Assembly (NCBI GenBank): GCA_028693815.1
Contig: JAQUUP010000006.1
Span: 1 to 61,138 of the forward strand
Length of the DNA: 61,138 nt
DNA from: Candidatus Omnitrophota bacterium
Lineage (GTDB): Bacteria > Omnitrophota > Gorgyraeia > Zapsychrales > Aceulaceae
Direction of reading: 5' to 3'
In this document: positions 39,781-50,687 of the stretch, piece after piece
Layout: the number at the start of each line of letters is the position of its first letter
Position numbering within the stretch: the first letter of the stretch is position 1
Position numbers and translations under genes: made by a program
The notes under the pieces: model-generated
Told to the model about the DNA's origin: nothing
The model's database searches: none
The model's input: the letters and a program-made list of their open reading frames with translations, nothing else

Positions 39781-40326
39781 ATGTTGCTAACACTTATTAT
39801 CATTGTCGTTTTAGGATTAGCTGTTGGAGGCATGTATAATCAATTTATTCAAGGACGCATTCATGTCCAAGAAGGCTTAAGCGGCGTTGATGTTCAACTT
39901 AAACGACGCCACAACCTTATCCCTAATCTTGTTGAAATCGTCAAAGGATACGCGCAGCATGAAAGTAGTTTATTCCAAAAAGTAACAGAGCTACGCTCTA
40001 AAGCAACAACCGCAACAGACATCAAAGAAAAGGCATCCTTGGAAAATAGCATCACACAAGCTCTTAAAGGCCTTCTTGTGGTTGTTGAAGCGTATCCCGA
40101 CCTAAAGGCCAATCAAAATTTTATTGAATTGCAAAAAAATCTTTCAGAAATTGAAGATGAAATTCAAATTTCTCGTCGATACTACAATGGAACTGTCCGA
40201 AATTTGAATATTCTAGTCCAAACTTTTCCACGAAATATTATTGCTAATATATTTGATTTTAAATCTGAGGAATTCTTCGAAGTTGAGTCCGCAACCGAAC
40301 GCTCCACACCTGAAATACAGTTTTAA
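39781..40326 (+). CDS. LemA family protein (second locus)
   Basis: A 181-residue LemA protein, paralogous to the one at 808. It has an N-terminal membrane helix (2-19), then GRIHVQEGLSGVDVQLKRRHNLIPNLVEIVKGYA and the YPDLKANQNF block. AAGGAGGG at 39770-39777 gives the start. Here the partner is a DUF2207 protein 28 bases downstream, the other common LemA companion, so this genome carries both types of LemA pair in one window. Confidence 0.95.
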   Translation: MLLTLIIIVVLGLAVGGMYNQFIQGRIHVQEGLSGVDVQLKRRHNLIPNLVEIVKGYAQHESSLFQKVTELRSKATTATDIKEKASLENSITQALKGLLVVVEAYPDLKANQNFIELQKNLSEIEDEIQISRRYYNGTVRNLNILVQTFPRNIIANIFDFKSEEFFEVESATERSTPEIQF

Positions 40327-40354
40327 TAAAACTTTTAGCAAAAAGGAGGGCTCT

Positions 40355-42118
40355 TTGCGAAAAACATTTTTCTTTCGAATTTTAATTTTAAGTTTTTTAG
40401 TTCTTATTTCTAATGAAAATGTATTATTTGCACAAACGTTAGAGCAAATTCTTTCGTTCCAGAGTGAAATTAGCGTCCAGCAAAATTCCAATCTCATTGT
40501 AACCGAAACAATCAAAGTTTATGCCGCTAGTCAAGAAATAAAACGCGGTATTTATCGTGATTTTCCAACTCGCTATAAAGATCAATTTGGGAATAATTAC
40601 GTTGTTGGTTTTAAAGTTATCTCTGTTTTGCGTGATGGACAACCAGATCAATATCACATAAAAAATATCGCCAATGGACAACGAGTTTATATTGGAGATG
40701 CAAACTATTTTTTGCCAAAAGGAGAATACACCTATACCCTCATATATCAAACAAACCGACAACTTGGATTTTTTAAAGATCATGACGAACTTTACTGGAA
40801 CGTTACTGGAAACGGCTGGGTATTTCCGATTCTATACGCAAAGGCCATTGTTGATTTACCACGGGGTGCCTACGAGGATATACTGCAATACAAAAGCTTT
40901 ACAGGCTATCAAGGATCTCAAAAAAAGGATGCAACAATTAAGCGCGATATGTTTGGCCGTTTGGTTTTCGAAACAACAAAGACACTTCTTCCAACTCAAG
41001 GGCTAACGATTGCGGTTATGTGGCCGAAAGGATACATAACAGAGCCAACAGCAATGATGAAACTTAAATATCTTTTAGCAGATAATAAAAATAATTTTTA
41101 CGCGTTTTTAGGTTTCCTTTTTCTTCTTTTTTATTACCTTTTAGCTTGGTATCTTTTTGGTCGTGATCCATCCAAAGGGACAATTATTCCACTTTTTCAT
41201 CCTCCAAAAAATATATCACCGGCTTCAATGCGCTATATTCTGAATATGAAATATGATCATAAAGTTTTTGTCGTTACTGTTCTTAGCATGGCAGTTAAGA
41301 AATTTCTTCGAATTGAAGAAAAAGATAATCTTAAAATCCTAAATTTTGGCAAAACTTACACACTTACAAAAACTGGCAATCAAGCTTCTTTAACAGCCGA
41401 AGAAAAAAATGTAAGCCAAAAACTTTTTAGACTATCAGAAGCAATAGAATTAAAGAATGAAAACTATGTGGAAATCGGAGACGCAATTTCTAATTTAAAA
41501 TTTCACTTAGAAAAAAATGTTGAATCTAAGTATTTCTTTTCAAATCATGGTTACTTCATTTTTGGAATTATTCTTTCAATAGGTTTCTTTATTCCGTGTT
41601 CTAATCTTCTAGTTCTAGAAAGTAACAGTGCTTCTGTGCCTTGGATTCTGTTCATATTGGCAAGCACTGTTATTTTAAACCTTGTATTTCATCATTTATT
41701 GAAAGCGCCAACCTCAATGGGTCGAAAAATGATGGATCAAATTAAAGGATTCAAAATGTTTTTGTCGGTCACCGAAAAAGAACGACTTAATATTTTAAAT
41801 CCACCAGAAAAAACACCCGAGCTATTTGAAAAATATCTTCCATACGCCTTAGCCCTTGATGTTGAGCACAAGTGGTCAGAACAATTTTCGGATGTTTTTG
41901 CTCGCCTAGAGCAACAAGGTCAGGCTTATTATCCTACATGGTACTCTGGCGGATCATGGAATTCATATAATATCGGTGGGTTTACTTCTAATCTTGGAAA
42001 TTTCTTTTCTTCAACTATTGCGTTATCTTCAATATCGCCTGGATCAAGCTCTGGATTCGGAGGAGGAGGCGGCGGATGTGGTGGTGGAGGAGGCGGAGGA
42101 GGCGGTGGTGGATGGTAG
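40355..42118 (+). CDS. DUF2207 membrane protein with Gly-rich tail
   Basis: A 587-residue protein starting at TTG 40355, five bases after AAAAGGAGGG. The first 25 residues are a signal peptide ending FAQ. The exported domain to about 240 is DUF2207-like (TETIKVYAASQEIKRGIYRDFP, YWNVTGNGWVFPI), followed by three or four membrane helices and cytoplasmic segments with RKMMDQIKGFKMFL. The protein ends in a run of Gly residues with one Cys and a final Trp, as in many DUF2207 proteins. Function unknown; works with LemA by association. Confidence 0.88.
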   Translation: MRKTFFFRILILSFLVLISNENVLFAQTLEQILSFQSEISVQQNSNLIVTETIKVYAASQEIKRGIYRDFPTRYKDQFGNNYVVGFKVISVLRDGQPDQYHIKNIANGQRVYIGDANYFLPKGEYTYTLIYQTNRQLGFFKDHDELYWNVTGNGWVFPILYAKAIVDLPRGAYEDILQYKSFTGYQGSQKKDATIKRDMFGRLVFETTKTLLPTQGLTIAVMWPKGYITEPTAMMKLKYLLADNKNNFYAFLGFLFLLFYYLLAWYLFGRDPSKGTIIPLFHPPKNISPASMRYILNMKYDHKVFVVTVLSMAVKKFLRIEEKDNLKILNFGKTYTLTKTGNQASLTAEEKNVSQKLFRLSEAIELKNENYVEIGDAISNLKFHLEKNVESKYFFSNHGYFIFGIILSIGFFIPCSNLLVLESNSASVPWILFILASTVILNLVFHHLLKAPTSMGRKMMDQIKGFKMFLSVTEKERLNILNPPEKTPELFEKYLPYALALDVEHKWSEQFSDVFARLEQQGQAYYPTWYSGGSWNSYNIGGFTSNLGNFFSSTIALSSISPGSSSGFGGGGGGCGGGGGGGGGGGW

Positions 42119-42253: not shown

Positions 42254-43222
42254 ATGAAGAAATGGCAAAAAATACCAGTCATCACGTTATCAATTATTCT
42301 GCTTCTTGGAATAATCAAGAATCAAATCATAAAAACAGTAGTCGCCACAGCTGCTTCAAGCATTTTAGGAGCAAAAGTACATATCGATAGTCTTGCCGTT
42401 GGCGTCTTTAAACCTGCGATAAAAATTAACGGATTAAAAGTTTACAATCCAAAGGATTTTCCAAAGGGAATTTTAATTGACATTAATAAAATGGAAGTCC
42501 AATACAATTTGCCCTCAATTTTAAAAGGAAAACTTCACTTGCCACTGGTAGCTTTAGACCTAAAGGAAATGATTGTTGTAAAAAATGCCACCGGTGAACT
42601 TAATGTTGATTCTCTTAAAGTAATTCAGCAAGAGGATGGTCAAAAGCAAATTAACAACAAAAATAAAAAACCTGCTAAGCAAATGTCAATGCAAATTGAT
42701 GAATTACACCTCAATTTAGGCAAGGCGATTATTAAAGATTACACAAAAGGAGAGTTACCCACAGTCTTGGCGTATGACATCGGCATAAAAAATAAAATTT
42801 ACACCAATATCCAGAGTGCTCAAGAACTTGTTGCGAGAATCATGCTTGATGCCATGGGACCAATAGGATTAAAGAGTGCGGCAATTTATGGAGCAGCTAC
42901 AGCTTTAGGCGTTGCGTTCTTGCCAGCTGGAATTGCTGGCATCCTAATCGGCGAAGATAGCGTGGTTGGTATTTACAAAAGTAGTCCAGATAAAGTTTTC
43001 GACAAAGCACTTGAATTGCTACAAAAAATTGGGACAATCAAAAAATCCAATACACAAAGAAAAACAATTACAGCAAACGTTTATGGGGCTGATGTCAACC
43101 TGACTATTTCAATTAATACGGATAAAAAAACAGAAGTCCGCATTAAAGCGCGTCAACTCATGGCGCCGAAAGACGAAATCGCTGGTGGCGTTCTGTATCA
43201 GCTTTCACAGGAGATAAAATAA
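42254..43222 (+). CDS. AsmA-like protein with DUF3568-like C-terminus
   Basis: A 322-residue protein. One N-terminal membrane helix (6-24) leads into an AsmA-type stretch (LAVGVFKPAIKINGLKVYNP and IDINKMEVQYNLPSIL), the start of a periplasmic beta-groove. A Lys/Asn/Gln-rich linker lies near 125-145. Near 195-240 is a hydrophobic Ala/Gly-rich segment. The last 80 residues (ITANVYGADVNLTISINTDK, then LYQLSQEI) resemble the DUF3568 domain of the lipoprotein at 59267. It ends one base before the RND gene, at the place where an adaptor protein is normally encoded. Confidence 0.75.
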   Translation: MKKWQKIPVITLSIILLLGIIKNQIIKTVVATAASSILGAKVHIDSLAVGVFKPAIKINGLKVYNPKDFPKGILIDINKMEVQYNLPSILKGKLHLPLVALDLKEMIVVKNATGELNVDSLKVIQQEDGQKQINNKNKKPAKQMSMQIDELHLNLGKAIIKDYTKGELPTVLAYDIGIKNKIYTNIQSAQELVARIMLDAMGPIGLKSAAIYGAATALGVAFLPAGIAGILIGEDSVVGIYKSSPDKVFDKALELLQKIGTIKKSNTQRKTITANVYGADVNLTISINTDKKTEVRIKARQLMAPKDEIAGGVLYQLSQEIK

Positions 43223-43223
43223 A

Positions 43224-46200
43224 TTGTTTAAAGAACAAATCATAAACTTTTTCCTTAAACGCCACTTATTGGCCAATCTTATTTTTATAACGGTTTTTGT
43301 TGGTGGTATTATTGCCTGGAATCAAATCCCAAAAGAAGAGCTTCCAGACATTACTTTTGATACTGTGCGTATTTCTGTTAATTATCCTGGTGCCTCAGCA
43401 GAAGAGGTCGAATATTATATTACGCGCCCTATTGAAGAGGCGGTGCGAAGCCTTGATGGGATTTACAAAATCACAAGCGCTACGGGTGTTGGCAGTTCGT
43501 CTGTTACCATCGAAATTGAAAAAGATTACCCGGACAAAGACGACGTTATCACAGAAATACGAAACGTCACGCTTGATGTTGATTTGCCTGATGATGTCAA
43601 AGACGACCCTAATATTCGAGTTTTTAAAACCTCTCGTAAAGCGATCATTGACATCGTTCTTTTTCTAGAAGACAAAAATATCTTAGATGTCTTATCGCGT
43701 CAAAAACTGCAATCCTACGCGCTAGCCCTTGAAAATAAACTTTTAAGTATTTCCGAAGTCAGCTCCATATCACGCTCTGGATACCTAGATGATGAAATTC
43801 ATATCAAAATTCATCCTGAAAAATTAATCGAATACCGAATTCCCTTTAATACGATTATCAGGGAAATTCAAGCCAACAATATCCGACAGCCTGCCGGAAA
43901 CATCGAAAATATTCAAGAACCAAAAGTGACGCTTTTTGGCGAGCTGACCGATATTACGGCTCTAAAGAACCTAGCGATTCAAGGTGGTTTTGAAGGACAA
44001 GTTATTCGTTTAAGCGATATCGCCGATGTCGTTAAAGGATATGAAAAAACAAAAACCGTTACAAAAATAAACGGGAGAGAAGGCATTGTCCTTAATGTAG
44101 TCAAAAGCTCCCAGGTTGGAATCATCGAAGCCATTGATGCCGTTACTCGAGTTGTTCAGAATTTTGAGCAAAACAATGCAAAGGAAAGCGGCATTAAAAT
44201 CGCTTTATTAGACGATGAATCTTTTGATGTACGAAATAGACTTTCTTTAATTATGCTTAATGGCGCAATTGGATTTATCTTGATTGCGTTTGCACTTTTT
44301 CTATTTCTGGATTTTCGTTCAGGGTTATGTGTCGCAATGGGCATTCCATTTACTTTTTGCTTTGCTTTAATTGCCGCATTCTTTGCAGGATACTCTGTTA
44401 ATAATATTACGCTTGCCGCAGTCATCATTGTCATGGGAATGGTTGTTGATGATGCCATTGTGGTCTCTGAAAACATTTCGCGATTTCGCGTCACAGGCAT
44501 GGACCCAGAACAAGCAGCCAACAAAGGAACTTCGTTTGTGTTTTTACCTATTATAGCAAGCATCCTAACAACTTGTGTTGCCTTCATACCGCTATATTTC
44601 TTCTCTGGAAGATTTGGCGCCATGGTTGGATTTATTCCATTAATTGTGTTTGTTATGCTTGGTGGAAGCTTATTTGAAGCACTCTTTATTCTCCCTGGAC
44701 ACATGATTTTACCTTTGGGAGATAAATTAAATAAGATTGTTCACGATTTTAATCTTAACAAACATGTTAAAAAACTTTTTAAAAAAACACTTTCACCAGC
44801 CGAGATCTCTAAAAAGCACTGGTTTGATTTCTGCGAAAGGATATACGCAAAATTAATCAAAAAATTGCTTCCTTTAAAATTCATTGTGTTTGGTTGTTTT
44901 GCAGTTCTTCTTGTTATATCTGCAATCATTGGCACTTATCGAATGAAATTCCTTATGTTTCCAGATGAGGAAACGCGACAAATTATTTTGACAGGAGAAG
45001 CTCCTGAAGGAACGCAACGATACCAAACGGCTCGTTTTACTCAAGCGATTGAAGATATTATCTTAAAATCTGTTGGCAAAGAAGTCGTTGGATTTAGAAA
45101 TCAGGTCGCCCAAACTCGTAGAGGTTCAGCGGCAACAGAAAATCAGTTTCGCATAAACATAGAAATTTTGCCGAAAGAAAAGCGAGAAAAAAGCGCCGAT
45201 CAACTCATTAAACAATGGGAAAAAGAATTTGCCAACCTTGAAAATTTTAAAAAATTAAAATTTCGAAAAACATGGCACGGACAATCAGGAGAGAGCCCTA
45301 TTGAAATTTTAGTCAAAGAAAATAATGATGAGCGTCGTTTTAAAATTTGCGATGAATTGAGTGAAATCATGAAATCATCCCCAGCTCTGACTGCCGTTGA
45401 AATCGATCGACCGATTTTAAATCTTGAATACCGCATCAAACTTGATCGCGATAAAATTCGAAGACTCGCGATAAATCCTTCGGACATCGCTTCAACACTT
45501 CGCGCTTCTTTAGAAGGAAAAATTTTATATGATTTTATGGGAGATGATGAAGAAATTTATGTGCGACTAACCACAACCGATAGCGCCAAAGACAGTATTG
45601 AAAAAGTTCTTGAGCTTCCAGTCGAAAACGCAGGAAACTATCTTGTCCCTTTAGGCGATATCGTTTTTGTTGAAAAGATTGAGAAGCCCGACTCAATCAT
45701 CCGTGAAGACCTGAAACGTACCACAACCATCTTTGCGGATATCAAGCCGGGGTCTGGAAAAACACCTCTAGATATTGCCGATTATTTTGAACACAATGTT
45801 TTTAGCAAGATTATGGCCAAATCCCCATCGACGATTGTGGAATTCGCAGGAGAAGTCTTGGACACACGAGAGTCACAAAAAAACTTTAGCGTGGCCATCT
45901 TAATGGCCATTGTGCTAATTTATATTATTTTAGCCCTTTTGTTTAATTCACTATTTAAGCCATTTATTATTATGCTCACAATTCCGTTTGGTATCGTTGG
46001 CATTATTTTGGCGTTTTGGTTACACGGAATTTCCATGTATGGATTCTTTGCGGTTATTGGAGCACTCGGTCTTGCTGGCGTTGTTGTCAATGACGCGATT
46101 ATTATGCTGGTTAAACTGGATAGTGATTTTAATTCATCTCTAGGCAAAGATCAAATTAACAACCAAATCGCTGAGATCGCAAAAACACGACTTCGCGCGG

Positions 46201-46391
46201 TTGTTCTCACAACGCTAACAACGGTCGTCGGCATCATCCCAACAGCATACGGGTGGGCTGGATACGATTCGATGCTTGCACAAATGATGCTGGCGCTCTG
46301 CTGGGGACTTATTTTTGGTACAACCATCACACTTATTCTTATTCCAAGTCTTTATAGTTTTATTCAAAATACGAGGTGTCGATTATCATGA
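43224..46391 (+). CDS. RND-family efflux permease
   Basis: A 1055-residue inner-membrane permease of the AcrB/MdtB type: 12 membrane helices in two halves, with large periplasmic loops at about 35-335 and 545-865. The proton-relay pair is in GMVVDDAIVVSENI near 405-418, and NITLAAVIIVMG before it. The start is TTG 43224 with AGGAG 11 bases upstream. Substrate is not predictable. It is linked to the AsmA-like gene upstream and overlaps tolC (ATGA), but no membrane-fusion protein gene is present. Confidence 0.93.
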   Translation: MFKEQIINFFLKRHLLANLIFITVFVGGIIAWNQIPKEELPDITFDTVRISVNYPGASAEEVEYYITRPIEEAVRSLDGIYKITSATGVGSSSVTIEIEKDYPDKDDVITEIRNVTLDVDLPDDVKDDPNIRVFKTSRKAIIDIVLFLEDKNILDVLSRQKLQSYALALENKLLSISEVSSISRSGYLDDEIHIKIHPEKLIEYRIPFNTIIREIQANNIRQPAGNIENIQEPKVTLFGELTDITALKNLAIQGGFEGQVIRLSDIADVVKGYEKTKTVTKINGREGIVLNVVKSSQVGIIEAIDAVTRVVQNFEQNNAKESGIKIALLDDESFDVRNRLSLIMLNGAIGFILIAFALFLFLDFRSGLCVAMGIPFTFCFALIAAFFAGYSVNNITLAAVIIVMGMVVDDAIVVSENISRFRVTGMDPEQAANKGTSFVFLPIIASILTTCVAFIPLYFFSGRFGAMVGFIPLIVFVMLGGSLFEALFILPGHMILPLGDKLNKIVHDFNLNKHVKKLFKKTLSPAEISKKHWFDFCERIYAKLIKKLLPLKFIVFGCFAVLLVISAIIGTYRMKFLMFPDEETRQIILTGEAPEGTQRYQTARFTQAIEDIILKSVGKEVVGFRNQVAQTRRGSAATENQFRINIEILPKEKREKSADQLIKQWEKEFANLENFKKLKFRKTWHGQSGESPIEILVKENNDERRFKICDELSEIMKSSPALTAVEIDRPILNLEYRIKLDRDKIRRLAINPSDIASTLRASLEGKILYDFMGDDEEIYVRLTTTDSAKDSIEKVLELPVENAGNYLVPLGDIVFVEKIEKPDSIIREDLKRTTTIFADIKPGSGKTPLDIADYFEHNVFSKIMAKSPSTIVEFAGEVLDTRESQKNFSVAILMAIVLIYIILALLFNSLFKPFIIMLTIPFGIVGIILAFWLHGISMYGFFAVIGALGLAGVVVNDAIIMLVKLDSDFNSSLGKDQINNQIAEIAKTRLRAVVLTTLTTVVGIIPTAYGWAGYDSMLAQMMLALCWGLIFGTTITLILIPSLYSFIQNTRCRLS

Positions 46392-47761
46392 AAAAAATAT
46401 TTCTTATTCTTTTAATTCTTTTTGTATCAATAGCTTCTTTTTCTCAGGAAAAAAGTATTAAAGTCTTACCCCTTGAAGATTTTGTTAATCTTGCGTCACA
46501 AAATGACACACGCTTTGAAGAAATCTTAATCGATGAGCTTAAGCTTAAATACCAGAAAACCCTCAGCCTTCCGACAGGGGATTTTCTTCTTTCTATCAAA
46601 GGACAATATGATTTTCTTTTTAATCCGAGCGACAATGATTATGAAAATAAAATTTCACTATCTAAGCTTTTTCCTTACACAGGCACAACACTGGCAGCGG
46701 AATACGATTCGTCAGTATCGTCACGCGCACGAAATGTAAGCTCAGAATTTAATATAACATTTTCGCAACCCATCGCCCAGAATGCGTTTGGTCGAAATAC
46801 ACGGCTACTCTCTAAAATTATTGGTCTCGAAACTGAAGTCGCAAGGTTCCAGATCACAGAAGCCTACGAAGATTATTTAGCATCGATTATTCAGCTTTAT
46901 TATAATTGGTATTCTGCTTATGAAAACGTCAAAACAGCTCAAAACTCTTTAAATGAAAATTTAAAGTTGCTTGACAACACAAAAGAACGTCAGAAGCATA
47001 AGATTGCTCTGCCCGTAGACGTCAACAAGGTCGAGCTTCAGGTTGCCGCTAAAAAGGAAGCCTTGATTGCGCTTGAAAATGCATACGCTAAATATCTAAA
47101 TCTCATCAAAGAATCAATTCGACATAATGCCACAGAAGCCCTGGAGCCAACAAATCCATCTGTTTATGAAGAAGTCGCTATTGATTTTGATTCTGATTAT
47201 GAATTATTTAAGACGCAAAGTCGCACAATACAAATTTTAAATCTTTTGCAAAACAAGGGCGGACTTGAGATCAACCAGTATGCTGATGAGATTTTACCGT
47301 CAATTAATATTATTGCCGGTTATTCAAAAGAGGGTTCTGATCGAGACTTAAGGGATAGCGATCAAATGGCTTTCGCCGGACTTTCGTTTGACTGGCCTTT
47401 TCCATCTACGGTTGAGCGCGCAAGATTAGAAATCGCTAAAATCAATCTTGAAAAAACAAAGCTATCAAATGAAAATATTTATCTTCGTCTTCATTCTAAT
47501 TTAAAGAATTTAAACAATCAAATCGCAAACGAGAGGCAGCTTATCGTGCTTGCCAAAAGCAAAATTATTTTTGCCCAATCCATTGTGGAAGATGAAAGAA
47601 AGAACTATTCTTTAGGTCGCACAACACTTAAGGATTTTATTGACGAAGTCAACAAGCTTGAAGACAACAAATTCAATAAACTTTATCATGAAATTGAGCT
47701 CAAACGGCTTATTGTGGAATGGTTGAGATTAACAGATAATTTGCTTACTAAAACGCTTTAA
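46388..47761 (+). CDS. TolC-family outer-membrane factor
   Basis: A 457-residue protein with a signal peptide (MKKIFLILLILFVSIASFS) and a long helical, repeated architecture with heptad-rich segments around 130-230 and 330-440, as in TolC proteins. The strands FSQPIAQNAFGRNTR and FDWPFPSTVERARLE mark the two structural repeats. It would provide the outer-membrane channel for the RND permease, whose stop it overlaps by ATGA. The ATG at 46388 is preferred to the GTG 12 bases earlier because it starts the signal peptide and GAGGTG lies 10 bases upstream. Confidence 0.88.
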   Translation: MKKIFLILLILFVSIASFSQEKSIKVLPLEDFVNLASQNDTRFEEILIDELKLKYQKTLSLPTGDFLLSIKGQYDFLFNPSDNDYENKISLSKLFPYTGTTLAAEYDSSVSSRARNVSSEFNITFSQPIAQNAFGRNTRLLSKIIGLETEVARFQITEAYEDYLASIIQLYYNWYSAYENVKTAQNSLNENLKLLDNTKERQKHKIALPVDVNKVELQVAAKKEALIALENAYAKYLNLIKESIRHNATEALEPTNPSVYEEVAIDFDSDYELFKTQSRTIQILNLLQNKGGLEINQYADEILPSINIIAGYSKEGSDRDLRDSDQMAFAGLSFDWPFPSTVERARLEIAKINLEKTKLSNENIYLRLHSNLKNLNNQIANERQLIVLAKSKIIFAQSIVEDERKNYSLGRTTLKDFIDEVNKLEDNKFNKLYHEIELKRLIVEWLRLTDNLLTKTL

Positions 47762-48929: not shown

Positions 48930-50687
48930 ATGAATTTTTGTGAATTTGACGTATTCGAAAAGAAAGTTATTATTCGAACCAAAACAAGAATTTGCGAGAC
49001 TGTTGATGAGCTGCTGGCAAGTCCACTCTTTATTCATATTTTAAAACTTTGCATAAAACAGCTACAGAAACACCATTCTTATTTACTTGGTATCTTTGAA
49101 AAAAAAGAAATCACAAACCAAGATATTGAAAACCTTGTTAAAACTTTTCACTTCTTAACAAAAATGTCAGGAAACCTAATCCCAAACGTTGTTAAAGAAT
49201 CTTCTACATTTTTCAAAGATAAGAAATTATTAAATGAATTTGTTGAATACATTTACAACAACTGGAGAAGCTTCGACCGTTTTATTCTCTGCGAATACGA
49301 AGAAAGCACGCAAGAAGATCGCCCTTACAGAATTTTTAACAATACTGTTGAACAATTGATGCATCTTGTCAGAGCTGCATACCGCGACATCCAGGAAAAT
49401 ATCACCGGCACTCATCCTCGAATATATCGTCAAGTACGGGCGGGCGCAGAAATTGCCAGCATTACAATTGTTAAAAAAATACCGTTTGGATCCTCTGAAT
49501 ATGAAAAATTAAATTCAGTCCCGATTATTCGACAAATTTTGATGTATCCTCCACTAATACTGAATCCTCCAATGAATAAGCGCACAGGCATGTTTGAGCA
49601 AGTCAAGCAAAATCCATTGGAAAAAGTGAAGCTAGAGGAAAACGATTGGTTGTGTTATCCCGCCAAAGTCGGTCAACTTGTTATTCTTATTTATTTTCAT
49701 CGTAAATTTTACGAACTTGGCTTTTCCTTGTGTAATCTTTTTGAGCTTGCGGAAGATGAAAAGCTAACTAAAAAGCCTGATGCTGTTTATTGTTTTGGTG
49801 TGTCCAAAGAAAACATCGAGGGCCTTGGTAAATCGCTAACTGTTTTCTATGAAGATTACAAAAATGGAATGCTCACCGCCGTCGTTCCCAGTGAAGATGA
49901 ATTTGGGTATTTTGGCTATCTCAAAAAGATGGTTTTAACGCTTCACAACGTTATTATGATGCGCCGAGGTATTTTACCATTTCATGGAGCGCTTCTAAAT
50001 GTGATGTTACCTGAAAATAAAGCTACGACAATTTTGCTTATTGGTGATACCGGTGCTGGCAAGTCCGAGACAATCGAAGCTCTGCGTGATCTAGGAAAAG
50101 ACGAAATCCAAGATATGATCATTATCGCAGATGATATGGGTTCGATCCAAGTTAATAAAGACGGCGATGCGATTGGTTATGGGACAGAAATTGGAGCTTT
50201 CTTGCGCCTGGATGATCTAAAAACAGGATATGCGTTTGGTCAAATCGATCGAGCCATTATTATGAGTCCAAACAAGACAAATGCCCGTATTATACTTCCT
50301 GTTGCGTCATTTGATCGCGTTGTACACGGATACAAAATTGATTTTATTATTTACGCGAATAATTATGAAGAAATCGATGACGAACATCCCGCTGTTGAAC
50401 AAATCAACAATTCTGAGAGCGCCTTACAAATATTTCGTGAAGGCACCGTTATGAGCAAAGGGACAACAACATCCACGGGACTTGTTCATTCCTATTTTGC
50501 AAATGTCTTTGGTCCAGCACAATATAAAAGTTTGCATGATGAACTCGCGAAAGAATATTTCGCAAAGTTTTATCAAAAAAATCTTTTTGTTGGCCAAATG
50601 AGAACACGGCTTGGTATCGCAGGATATGAGAGGCAAGGCCCAGAAAAAGCCGCCAAAGAACTTTTAAATATAATTAAGAATCGTTAA
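48930..50687 (+). CDS. P-loop protein of the PEPCK/HPr-kinase superfamily, unknown
   Basis: A 585-residue soluble protein. The Walker A loop GDTGAGKSETIEAL sits near 372-385 and is preceded by RGILPFHGALLNVML, an arrangement shared by HPr kinase and ATP-dependent PEP carboxykinase. After it, IIADDMGSIQVN offers an Asp pair for metal. The N-terminal 250 residues are helical and have no recognised domain, and the carboxykinase active-site motifs are not complete, so enzyme activity should not be assumed. A protein or small-molecule kinase is possible. It stands alone with its own promoter. Confidence 0.7.
   Translation: MNFCEFDVFEKKVIIRTKTRICETVDELLASPLFIHILKLCIKQLQKHHSYLLGIFEKKEITNQDIENLVKTFHFLTKMSGNLIPNVVKESSTFFKDKKLLNEFVEYIYNNWRSFDRFILCEYEESTQEDRPYRIFNNTVEQLMHLVRAAYRDIQENITGTHPRIYRQVRAGAEIASITIVKKIPFGSSEYEKLNSVPIIRQILMYPPLILNPPMNKRTGMFEQVKQNPLEKVKLEENDWLCYPAKVGQLVILIYFHRKFYELGFSLCNLFELAEDEKLTKKPDAVYCFGVSKENIEGLGKSLTVFYEDYKNGMLTAVVPSEDEFGYFGYLKKMVLTLHNVIMMRRGILPFHGALLNVMLPENKATTILLIGDTGAGKSETIEALRDLGKDEIQDMIIIADDMGSIQVNKDGDAIGYGTEIGAFLRLDDLKTGYAFGQIDRAIIMSPNKTNARIILPVASFDRVVHGYKIDFIIYANNYEEIDDEHPAVEQINNSESALQIFREGTVMSKGTTTSTGLVHSYFANVFGPAQYKSLHDELAKEYFAKFYQKNLFVGQMRTRLGIAGYERQGPEKAAKELLNIIKNR

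Follow-up and report, generated by a model that had tools for sequence, protein, structure and literature searches.

Gene Organization of the Locus

The window (the whole stretch of DNA that was analyzed, 61,138 nucleotides) belongs to an Omnitrophota genome, G000, which is available as a 1.9 Mb assembly of 52 contigs and is 96.5% complete. It includes three consecutive genes on the forward strand, encoding a protein of 322 residues, an RND permease, and an outer membrane factor of the TolC family. The features of this locus are listed below.

42254..43222, + strand: mini-AsmA/DUF3568-like protein, 322 aa (open reading frame; family profile matches; AF2 pLDDT 85.9)
42260..42367, + strand: predicted N-terminal membrane helix, residues 3–38 (AF2 secondary structure; hydrophobic sequence)
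42377..42853, + strand: predicted curved sheet, chorein/AsmA-like, plus short helices, residues 42–200 (AF2 model of residues 1–200, pLDDT 88.6)
42866..42949, + strand: conserved hydrophobic Gly/Ala-rich stretch, residues 205–232, of low model confidence (alignment; pLDDT <50 at 216–232)
42950..43219, + strand: predicted C-terminal DUF3568/BamC-N-like domain, residues 233–322 (VIA-align fold match)
43209..43213, + strand: AGGAG within the final bases of the 322-residue gene, which may serve the RND gene as its ribosome-binding site (read from the sequence)
43224..46391, + strand: RND permease of clade I, which lacks a membrane-fusion protein (MFP), 1055 aa (ACR_tran, 527 bits; orthologues 51–79% identical in other Omnitrophota)
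44448..44453, + strand: Asp-Asp pair in TM4, residues 409–410, at the proton-relay positions (alignment)
46388..47761, + strand: outer membrane factor of the TolC family, 457 aa when read from ATG, or 461 aa from GTG at 46376 (OEP in Pfam, E 1.3e-27)

The order AsmA-like gene, RND gene, TolC gene and their tight spacing, as given in the initial annotation, are borne out by three open reading frames. The RND gene starts with TTG one base past the stop codon of the 322-residue gene, and the starts of its homologues fall within a few residues of this position. The ATG of the TolC gene overlaps the stop codon of the RND gene in the sequence ATGA. The permease qualifies as an RND protein of the HAE type, being a full-length match to ACR_tran in Pfam (E 7.7e-158, model positions 1–1020 of 1021). 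Co-transcription of the AsmA-like gene with the RND–TolC genes is likely because of the one-base spacing and the AGGAG located inside the end of the former; scans for promoters and terminators gave signals at chance level.

No MFP gene is found in or beside the operon, as had been noted earlier. The MFP gene usually lies 5′ of the RND gene in known RND operons, and so the 322-residue gene, which precedes the RND gene, does stand in the place of the MFP as proposed, but by position only.

Domains and Predicted Fold of the 322-Residue Protein

The folds described for the 322-residue protein are computed predictions. AlphaFold2, run on a 68-member family alignment, yields a model with a mean pLDDT of 85.9 that starts with a helix (residues 3–38), continues with a sheet extending to about residue 186, and ends with a compact domain, with the hydrophobic residues 216–232 being poorly modelled. 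Structural comparison of the whole model is dominated by the C-terminal domain, and the N-terminal part (residues 1–200) was predicted and compared alone. Its top matches are the N-terminus of Vps13 (Z 6.5, rmsd 4.8, 129 residues aligned), Atg2 (Z 5.6), LPD-3, and TamB (Z 5.4). The scores against chorein-like folds are modest, with Z of only 5–6.5, although the top six rows agree. Vps13, Atg2, and TamB are lipid-transfer or AsmA-like proteins. The N-termini of AsmA and TamB are related to chorein (PMC6791001).

Family profiles point in the same direction, with DUF748 recognized in all 68 aligned members and AsmA in 58 of them (E 0.01 or better). The protein encoded in the window matches only DUF748, partially and below the cut-off (E 3.3e-11, 42.4 bits against a cut-off of 50 in Pfam), and not the AsmA profile; weak matches of its N-terminus to TIGR03545 and LIC_11026 are found in NCBIfam. 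The C-terminal domain of the model superimposes on BamC-N (Z 11.9, rmsd 2.0, 88 residues aligned by VIA-align) and on Flpp3 (Z 10.8). DUF3568 is detected in 18 of the 68 family members, at best with 6e-5, the window protein itself having no DUF3568 match. MFP domains (HlyD_D23, RND_mfp) are absent from the Pfam and NCBIfam matches of the protein and its family, and no credible sequence relative is present in the PDB.

As far as could be tested here, the initial description of an inner-membrane-anchored periplasmic protein with an AsmA-like N-terminus and a DUF3568/BamC-like C-terminus appears to be right, and the refuting condition set there, a structure with no AsmA-like groove, did not overturn it. 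The N-terminal membrane helix and the chorein-like N-terminal domain would be shared with AsmA, TamB, YhdP, YdbH, and YicH (DUF748). Whereas AsmA-like proteins form a long rod, about 200 AsmA-like residues are here predicted to be fused to a DUF3568/BamC-like domain. That domain (residues 233–322) would have the same fold as DUF3568 lipoproteins, Flpp3, and BamC-N (Z 10.8–11.9); unlike the DUF3568 lipoproteins, however, it is not a separate lipoprotein and would be tethered to the inner membrane via the AsmA-like part. The same genome also encodes a DUF3568-like lipoprotein of 137 residues (L017, 2817–3230), unmatched by Pfam, which resembles the C-terminus of the 322-residue protein (E 2e-6).

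Conservation of the RND–TolC Pair

Orthologues of the permease (51–79% identity), referred to as clade I, were identified in 15 of the order's 81 genomes, counting the window genome; a second clade at ~30% identity raises the order-wide RND tally to 22 of 81. With a strict threshold, clade I is present in 32 of the 384 genomes sampled across the phylum. Downstream sequence is readable at 30 homologous loci, and at 27 of them a TolC orthologue directly follows the RND gene, the exceptions being G115, G219, and G052. The upstream neighbours vary and include a MiaB-like radical SAM protein, ornithine cyclodeaminase, a PAS/GAF protein, a Na/H exchanger, and others. The same-strand upstream proteins that were compared show no resemblance to one another, and no AsmA-like gene is found upstream of the orthologous RND gene among the loci inspected. 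A P-loop protein of 585 residues with weak similarity to PEPCK/HprK, encoded two genes beyond TolC in the window (48930–50687), also has its gene immediately 5′ of the clade I RND gene in both G219 (L090, 5152–6909) and G158 (L092, 1651–3408).

Each of the 12 aligned clade I proteins keeps the Asp-Asp pair of TM4. The RND proteins are 1015–1059 residues long and the TolC proteins 457–510, and the alignment with ACR_tran is full-length, with no large insertion. Since the pair is kept and proteins of these lengths could not accommodate an additional domain, the natural reading of the sequences is that the clade I RND is a proton-driven pump. An adaptor domain fused into RND or TolC was considered and is ruled out by the lengths and by the lack of a large insertion.

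The RND protein of the window is 72–79% identical to proteins from another family of the same class (G373, G268) and only 58% identical to the copy from its own genus. In the tree it groups with that of G373 (99/98), with the G176 copy placed among other members of the order. The greater closeness to the RND of another family, together with the tree, suggests that the RND–TolC pair reached the window lineage by horizontal transfer. The base composition of the insert carries no foreign signal (GC 0.36–0.39, like the surroundings).

Searches for an Adaptor

In the window genome, TIGR01730 gives one match better than E 0.01, a protein of 230 residues encoded on contig C44 in another operon. This match is below the model cut-off and falls largely in the C-terminal half of the MFP model, the protein contains no Pfam MFP domain, and HlyD_D23 finds nothing in this genome. 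An undetected short MFP beside the RND–TolC pair was looked for among the ten flanking genes with Pfam and among further neighbours by eye, and none of these is MFP-like. The operon on C44 (L016, 905–5946) comprises TolC, the 230-residue MFP-like protein, and an RND protein that lacks the Asp-Asp pair in TM4; short MFP-like proteins of 225–251 residues recur across many Omnitrophota genomes.

In a set of 16 genomes from the order, 30 of the 43 other RND genes or fragments have an MFP match no more than 3.5 kb away, compared with one of the 14 clade I genes and none of the 11 genes of clade II. The single exception in clade I is G219, where the MFP is 2.5 kb off and behind a different TolC-like gene. 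In 17 further genomes, none of the 18 clade I loci has an MFP nearby, and the single MFP match on the contig of a clade I gene is 48 kb away from it (G052). In total, a nearby MFP is absent from 31 of 32 clade I loci. At E 1e-4, no MFP match at all is found in G289, G345, and G191, the last of which has two clade I pairs; these are incomplete MAGs (80–89%), in which each absence alone is weak, but the pattern is not. MFPs seen in G000 and G176 adjoin their own RND genes, and at least one MFP gene is present in many relatives. The absence of a nearby MFP gene is a conserved trait of the clade I RND–TolC unit, and the pair is a conserved unit that is either adaptor-less or adaptor-borrowing.

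The window genome also includes a second MFP-less unit (L015, contig C16, 3203–8392), which consists of a MarR-like gene, TolC (509 aa), and RND (1054 aa). The RND protein of this unit, belonging to clade II, is 57–67% identical to those in G077, G115, and G217, none of which has an MFP nearby; in G077 and G115 TolC stands beside it.

Distribution of the Mini-AsmA Family and Its Neighbours

A whole-phylum search of Omnitrophota finds matches to the 322-residue protein in 289 of the 384 genomes. About 100 of these matches are full-length, at 31–58% identity, and many more cover only the first ~200 residues. Named related loci come nearly all from Omnitrophota, for example Candidatus Velamenicoccus archaeovorus LiM, apart from two with the label Elusimicrobia and a few called simply ‘bacterium’.

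An RND gene adjoins the AsmA-like gene in none of the 29 close relatives (flanks up to 1.5 kb) and in none of the 80 relatives in named genome contigs, these two sets being overlapping. In three of the 80, an RND gene is located within the flank examined, at least 1.7 kb away. The survey for AsmA/DUF3568 genes adjoining RND genes, which the initial annotation had called for, went against its reading, and an AsmA protein as a conserved operon partner of RND–TolC is ruled out by the two neighbour surveys.

Two genomes of the same genus show each component without the other. The AsmA-like gene of G302 is 58% identical and its upstream genes are syntenic with the window, yet RND–TolC is absent behind it; G176 has RND–TolC but no full-length AsmA/DUF3568 gene, only a weak match. 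In the window, a LemA gene and then a DUF2207 gene with a Gly-rich tail (39781–42118) lie between an antiporter gene and the AsmA-like gene, and both are absent from the syntenic region of G302. Across the order, a full-length AsmA gene is present in seven of the 12 carriers of clade I RND and in 24 of the 49 non-carriers (Fisher p 0.75), so the two co-occur no more than by chance. The tight AsmA–RND spacing is seen in the window genome only, whereas the coupling of RND with TolC is conserved.

Probably Two Separate Units at One Locus

We consider it probable that two unrelated units meet at this locus, an MFP-less RND–TolC pair and a separate mini-AsmA protein, and that they do not form a single machine. 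Gene content, conservation of the pair, the absence of a nearby MFP, and the lack of linkage are observed directly. Since the relatives show two separate units, the AsmA-like protein is probably a chance neighbour and not the missing adaptor. In the proposed arrangement, the RND trimer, powered by protons, would take its substrate from the periplasm or from the outer face of the inner membrane and would presumably pass it on to the co-encoded TolC. The two may make contact by direct tip-to-tip docking, or with the help of an adaptor that is unlinked or not recognizable as an MFP. The mini-AsmA protein would be a separate, phylum-wide protein that probably binds or transfers a hydrophobic envelope component, lipid or otherwise, in the periplasm. 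The RND–TolC pair would have come to stand directly behind its gene, and the three genes may be co-transcribed; as their spacing suggests this, the AsmA-like protein and the pump could be functionally coupled in this particular genome.

How the pair would function admits more than one answer. That a widespread RND clade works with TolC alone, through direct docking and with no MFP, can be put forward only tentatively. Borrowing of an adaptor encoded elsewhere, which is established for AcrD with AcrA or AcrE (PMC8446912), is an alternative of about the same, rather low, likelihood. The short MFP-like protein on C44 and the MFP genes of many relatives might provide such a partner, but the C44 protein has only 230 residues, scores below the cut-off mainly in the C-terminal half of the model, and is devoid of a Pfam MFP domain; moreover, the MFPs of G000 and G176 adjoin their own RND genes, and three (incomplete) genomes have no match at E 1e-4. 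A divergent adaptor, unrecognized as an MFP, is also possible. An adaptor may be present after all, as incomplete MAGs can hide MFP genes in single cases and an unlinked MFP could be shared in genomes that have one.

The initial annotation had placed the mini-AsmA protein in the role of the adaptor, with the RND–TolC complex moving lipid between membranes. Its gene is adjacent to the RND gene, on the same strand and with a one-base gap, the protein has an inner-membrane anchor and a predicted fold resembling those of lipid-transfer proteins, and a full MFP was found neither in the operon nor in the genome. Nevertheless, we regard this role as very unlikely: relatives of the protein do not stand beside RND genes, no orthologous RND locus inspected has such a gene upstream, co-occurrence is absent, within the genus each is found without the other, and the protein has no MFP sequence domain and a C-terminal fold like that of BamC. 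Transport of lipid by the complex is unsupported, the linkage of the AsmA-like gene with RND–TolC being confined to the window genome. Finally, an MFP gene missed through assembly gaps in a MAG of 52 contigs, or lost to leave a non-functional pump, is most improbable, as a nearby MFP is lacking in 31 of the 32 orthologous loci across the phylum and the RND and TolC genes are open and full-length, with the proton-relay residues conserved.

Comparison with Known Pumps

The RND–TolC pair shares with AcrAB-TolC and CmeABC (the AcrB/MexB/CmeB type) a full-length ACR_tran permease, the TM4 Asp-Asp pair, and a co-encoded OEP/TolC protein, and the best match of the window RND in the PDB is CmeB (E 3e-64). 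In contrast to these systems, the operon has no MFP gene, and no full MFP gene was found in the genome. The AcrD gene of Salmonella and E. coli likewise has no MFP gene of its own (PMC8446912). However, AcrD uses an unlinked MFP, whereas in clade I TolC is co-encoded and several carriers yielded no partner MFP. In BesCAB of Borrelia burgdorferi, too, the adaptor deviates from the standard form, and neither pump nor channel has a domain that compensates for this (PMC3807786); BesA is still an MFP, with lipoyl, barrel, and MP domains, whereas the window operon encodes no MFP. The BesA case demonstrates that an RND pump can function without the MFP hairpin, and the authors of that study prefer a model of pump–channel contact (PMC3807786). 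A complete lack of an adaptor would go further than the missing hairpin of BesA.

Among open-licence papers, none was found that joins Omnitrophota, RND, and TolC, or that describes an adaptor-less RND–TolC unit. If true, adaptor-free docking would contradict the rule that RND pumps require an adaptor to export across the outer membrane, and pump–channel function without one would bear on the long efflux debate over the extent of direct pump–channel contact, for which BesA offers a comparison. A natural clade that consistently encodes RND and TolC with no adaptor, including some genomes without a detected adaptor, would make this question testable.

The mini-AsmA/DUF3568 family, in turn, is an uncharacterized phylum-wide family of envelope proteins with no specific tie to efflux. 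A short form of mini-AsmA is common in the phylum (L195–L205); in the ten such proteins read, of 251–301 residues, the N-terminus is the same and an amphipathic-looking C-terminus replaces the DUF3568-like domain.
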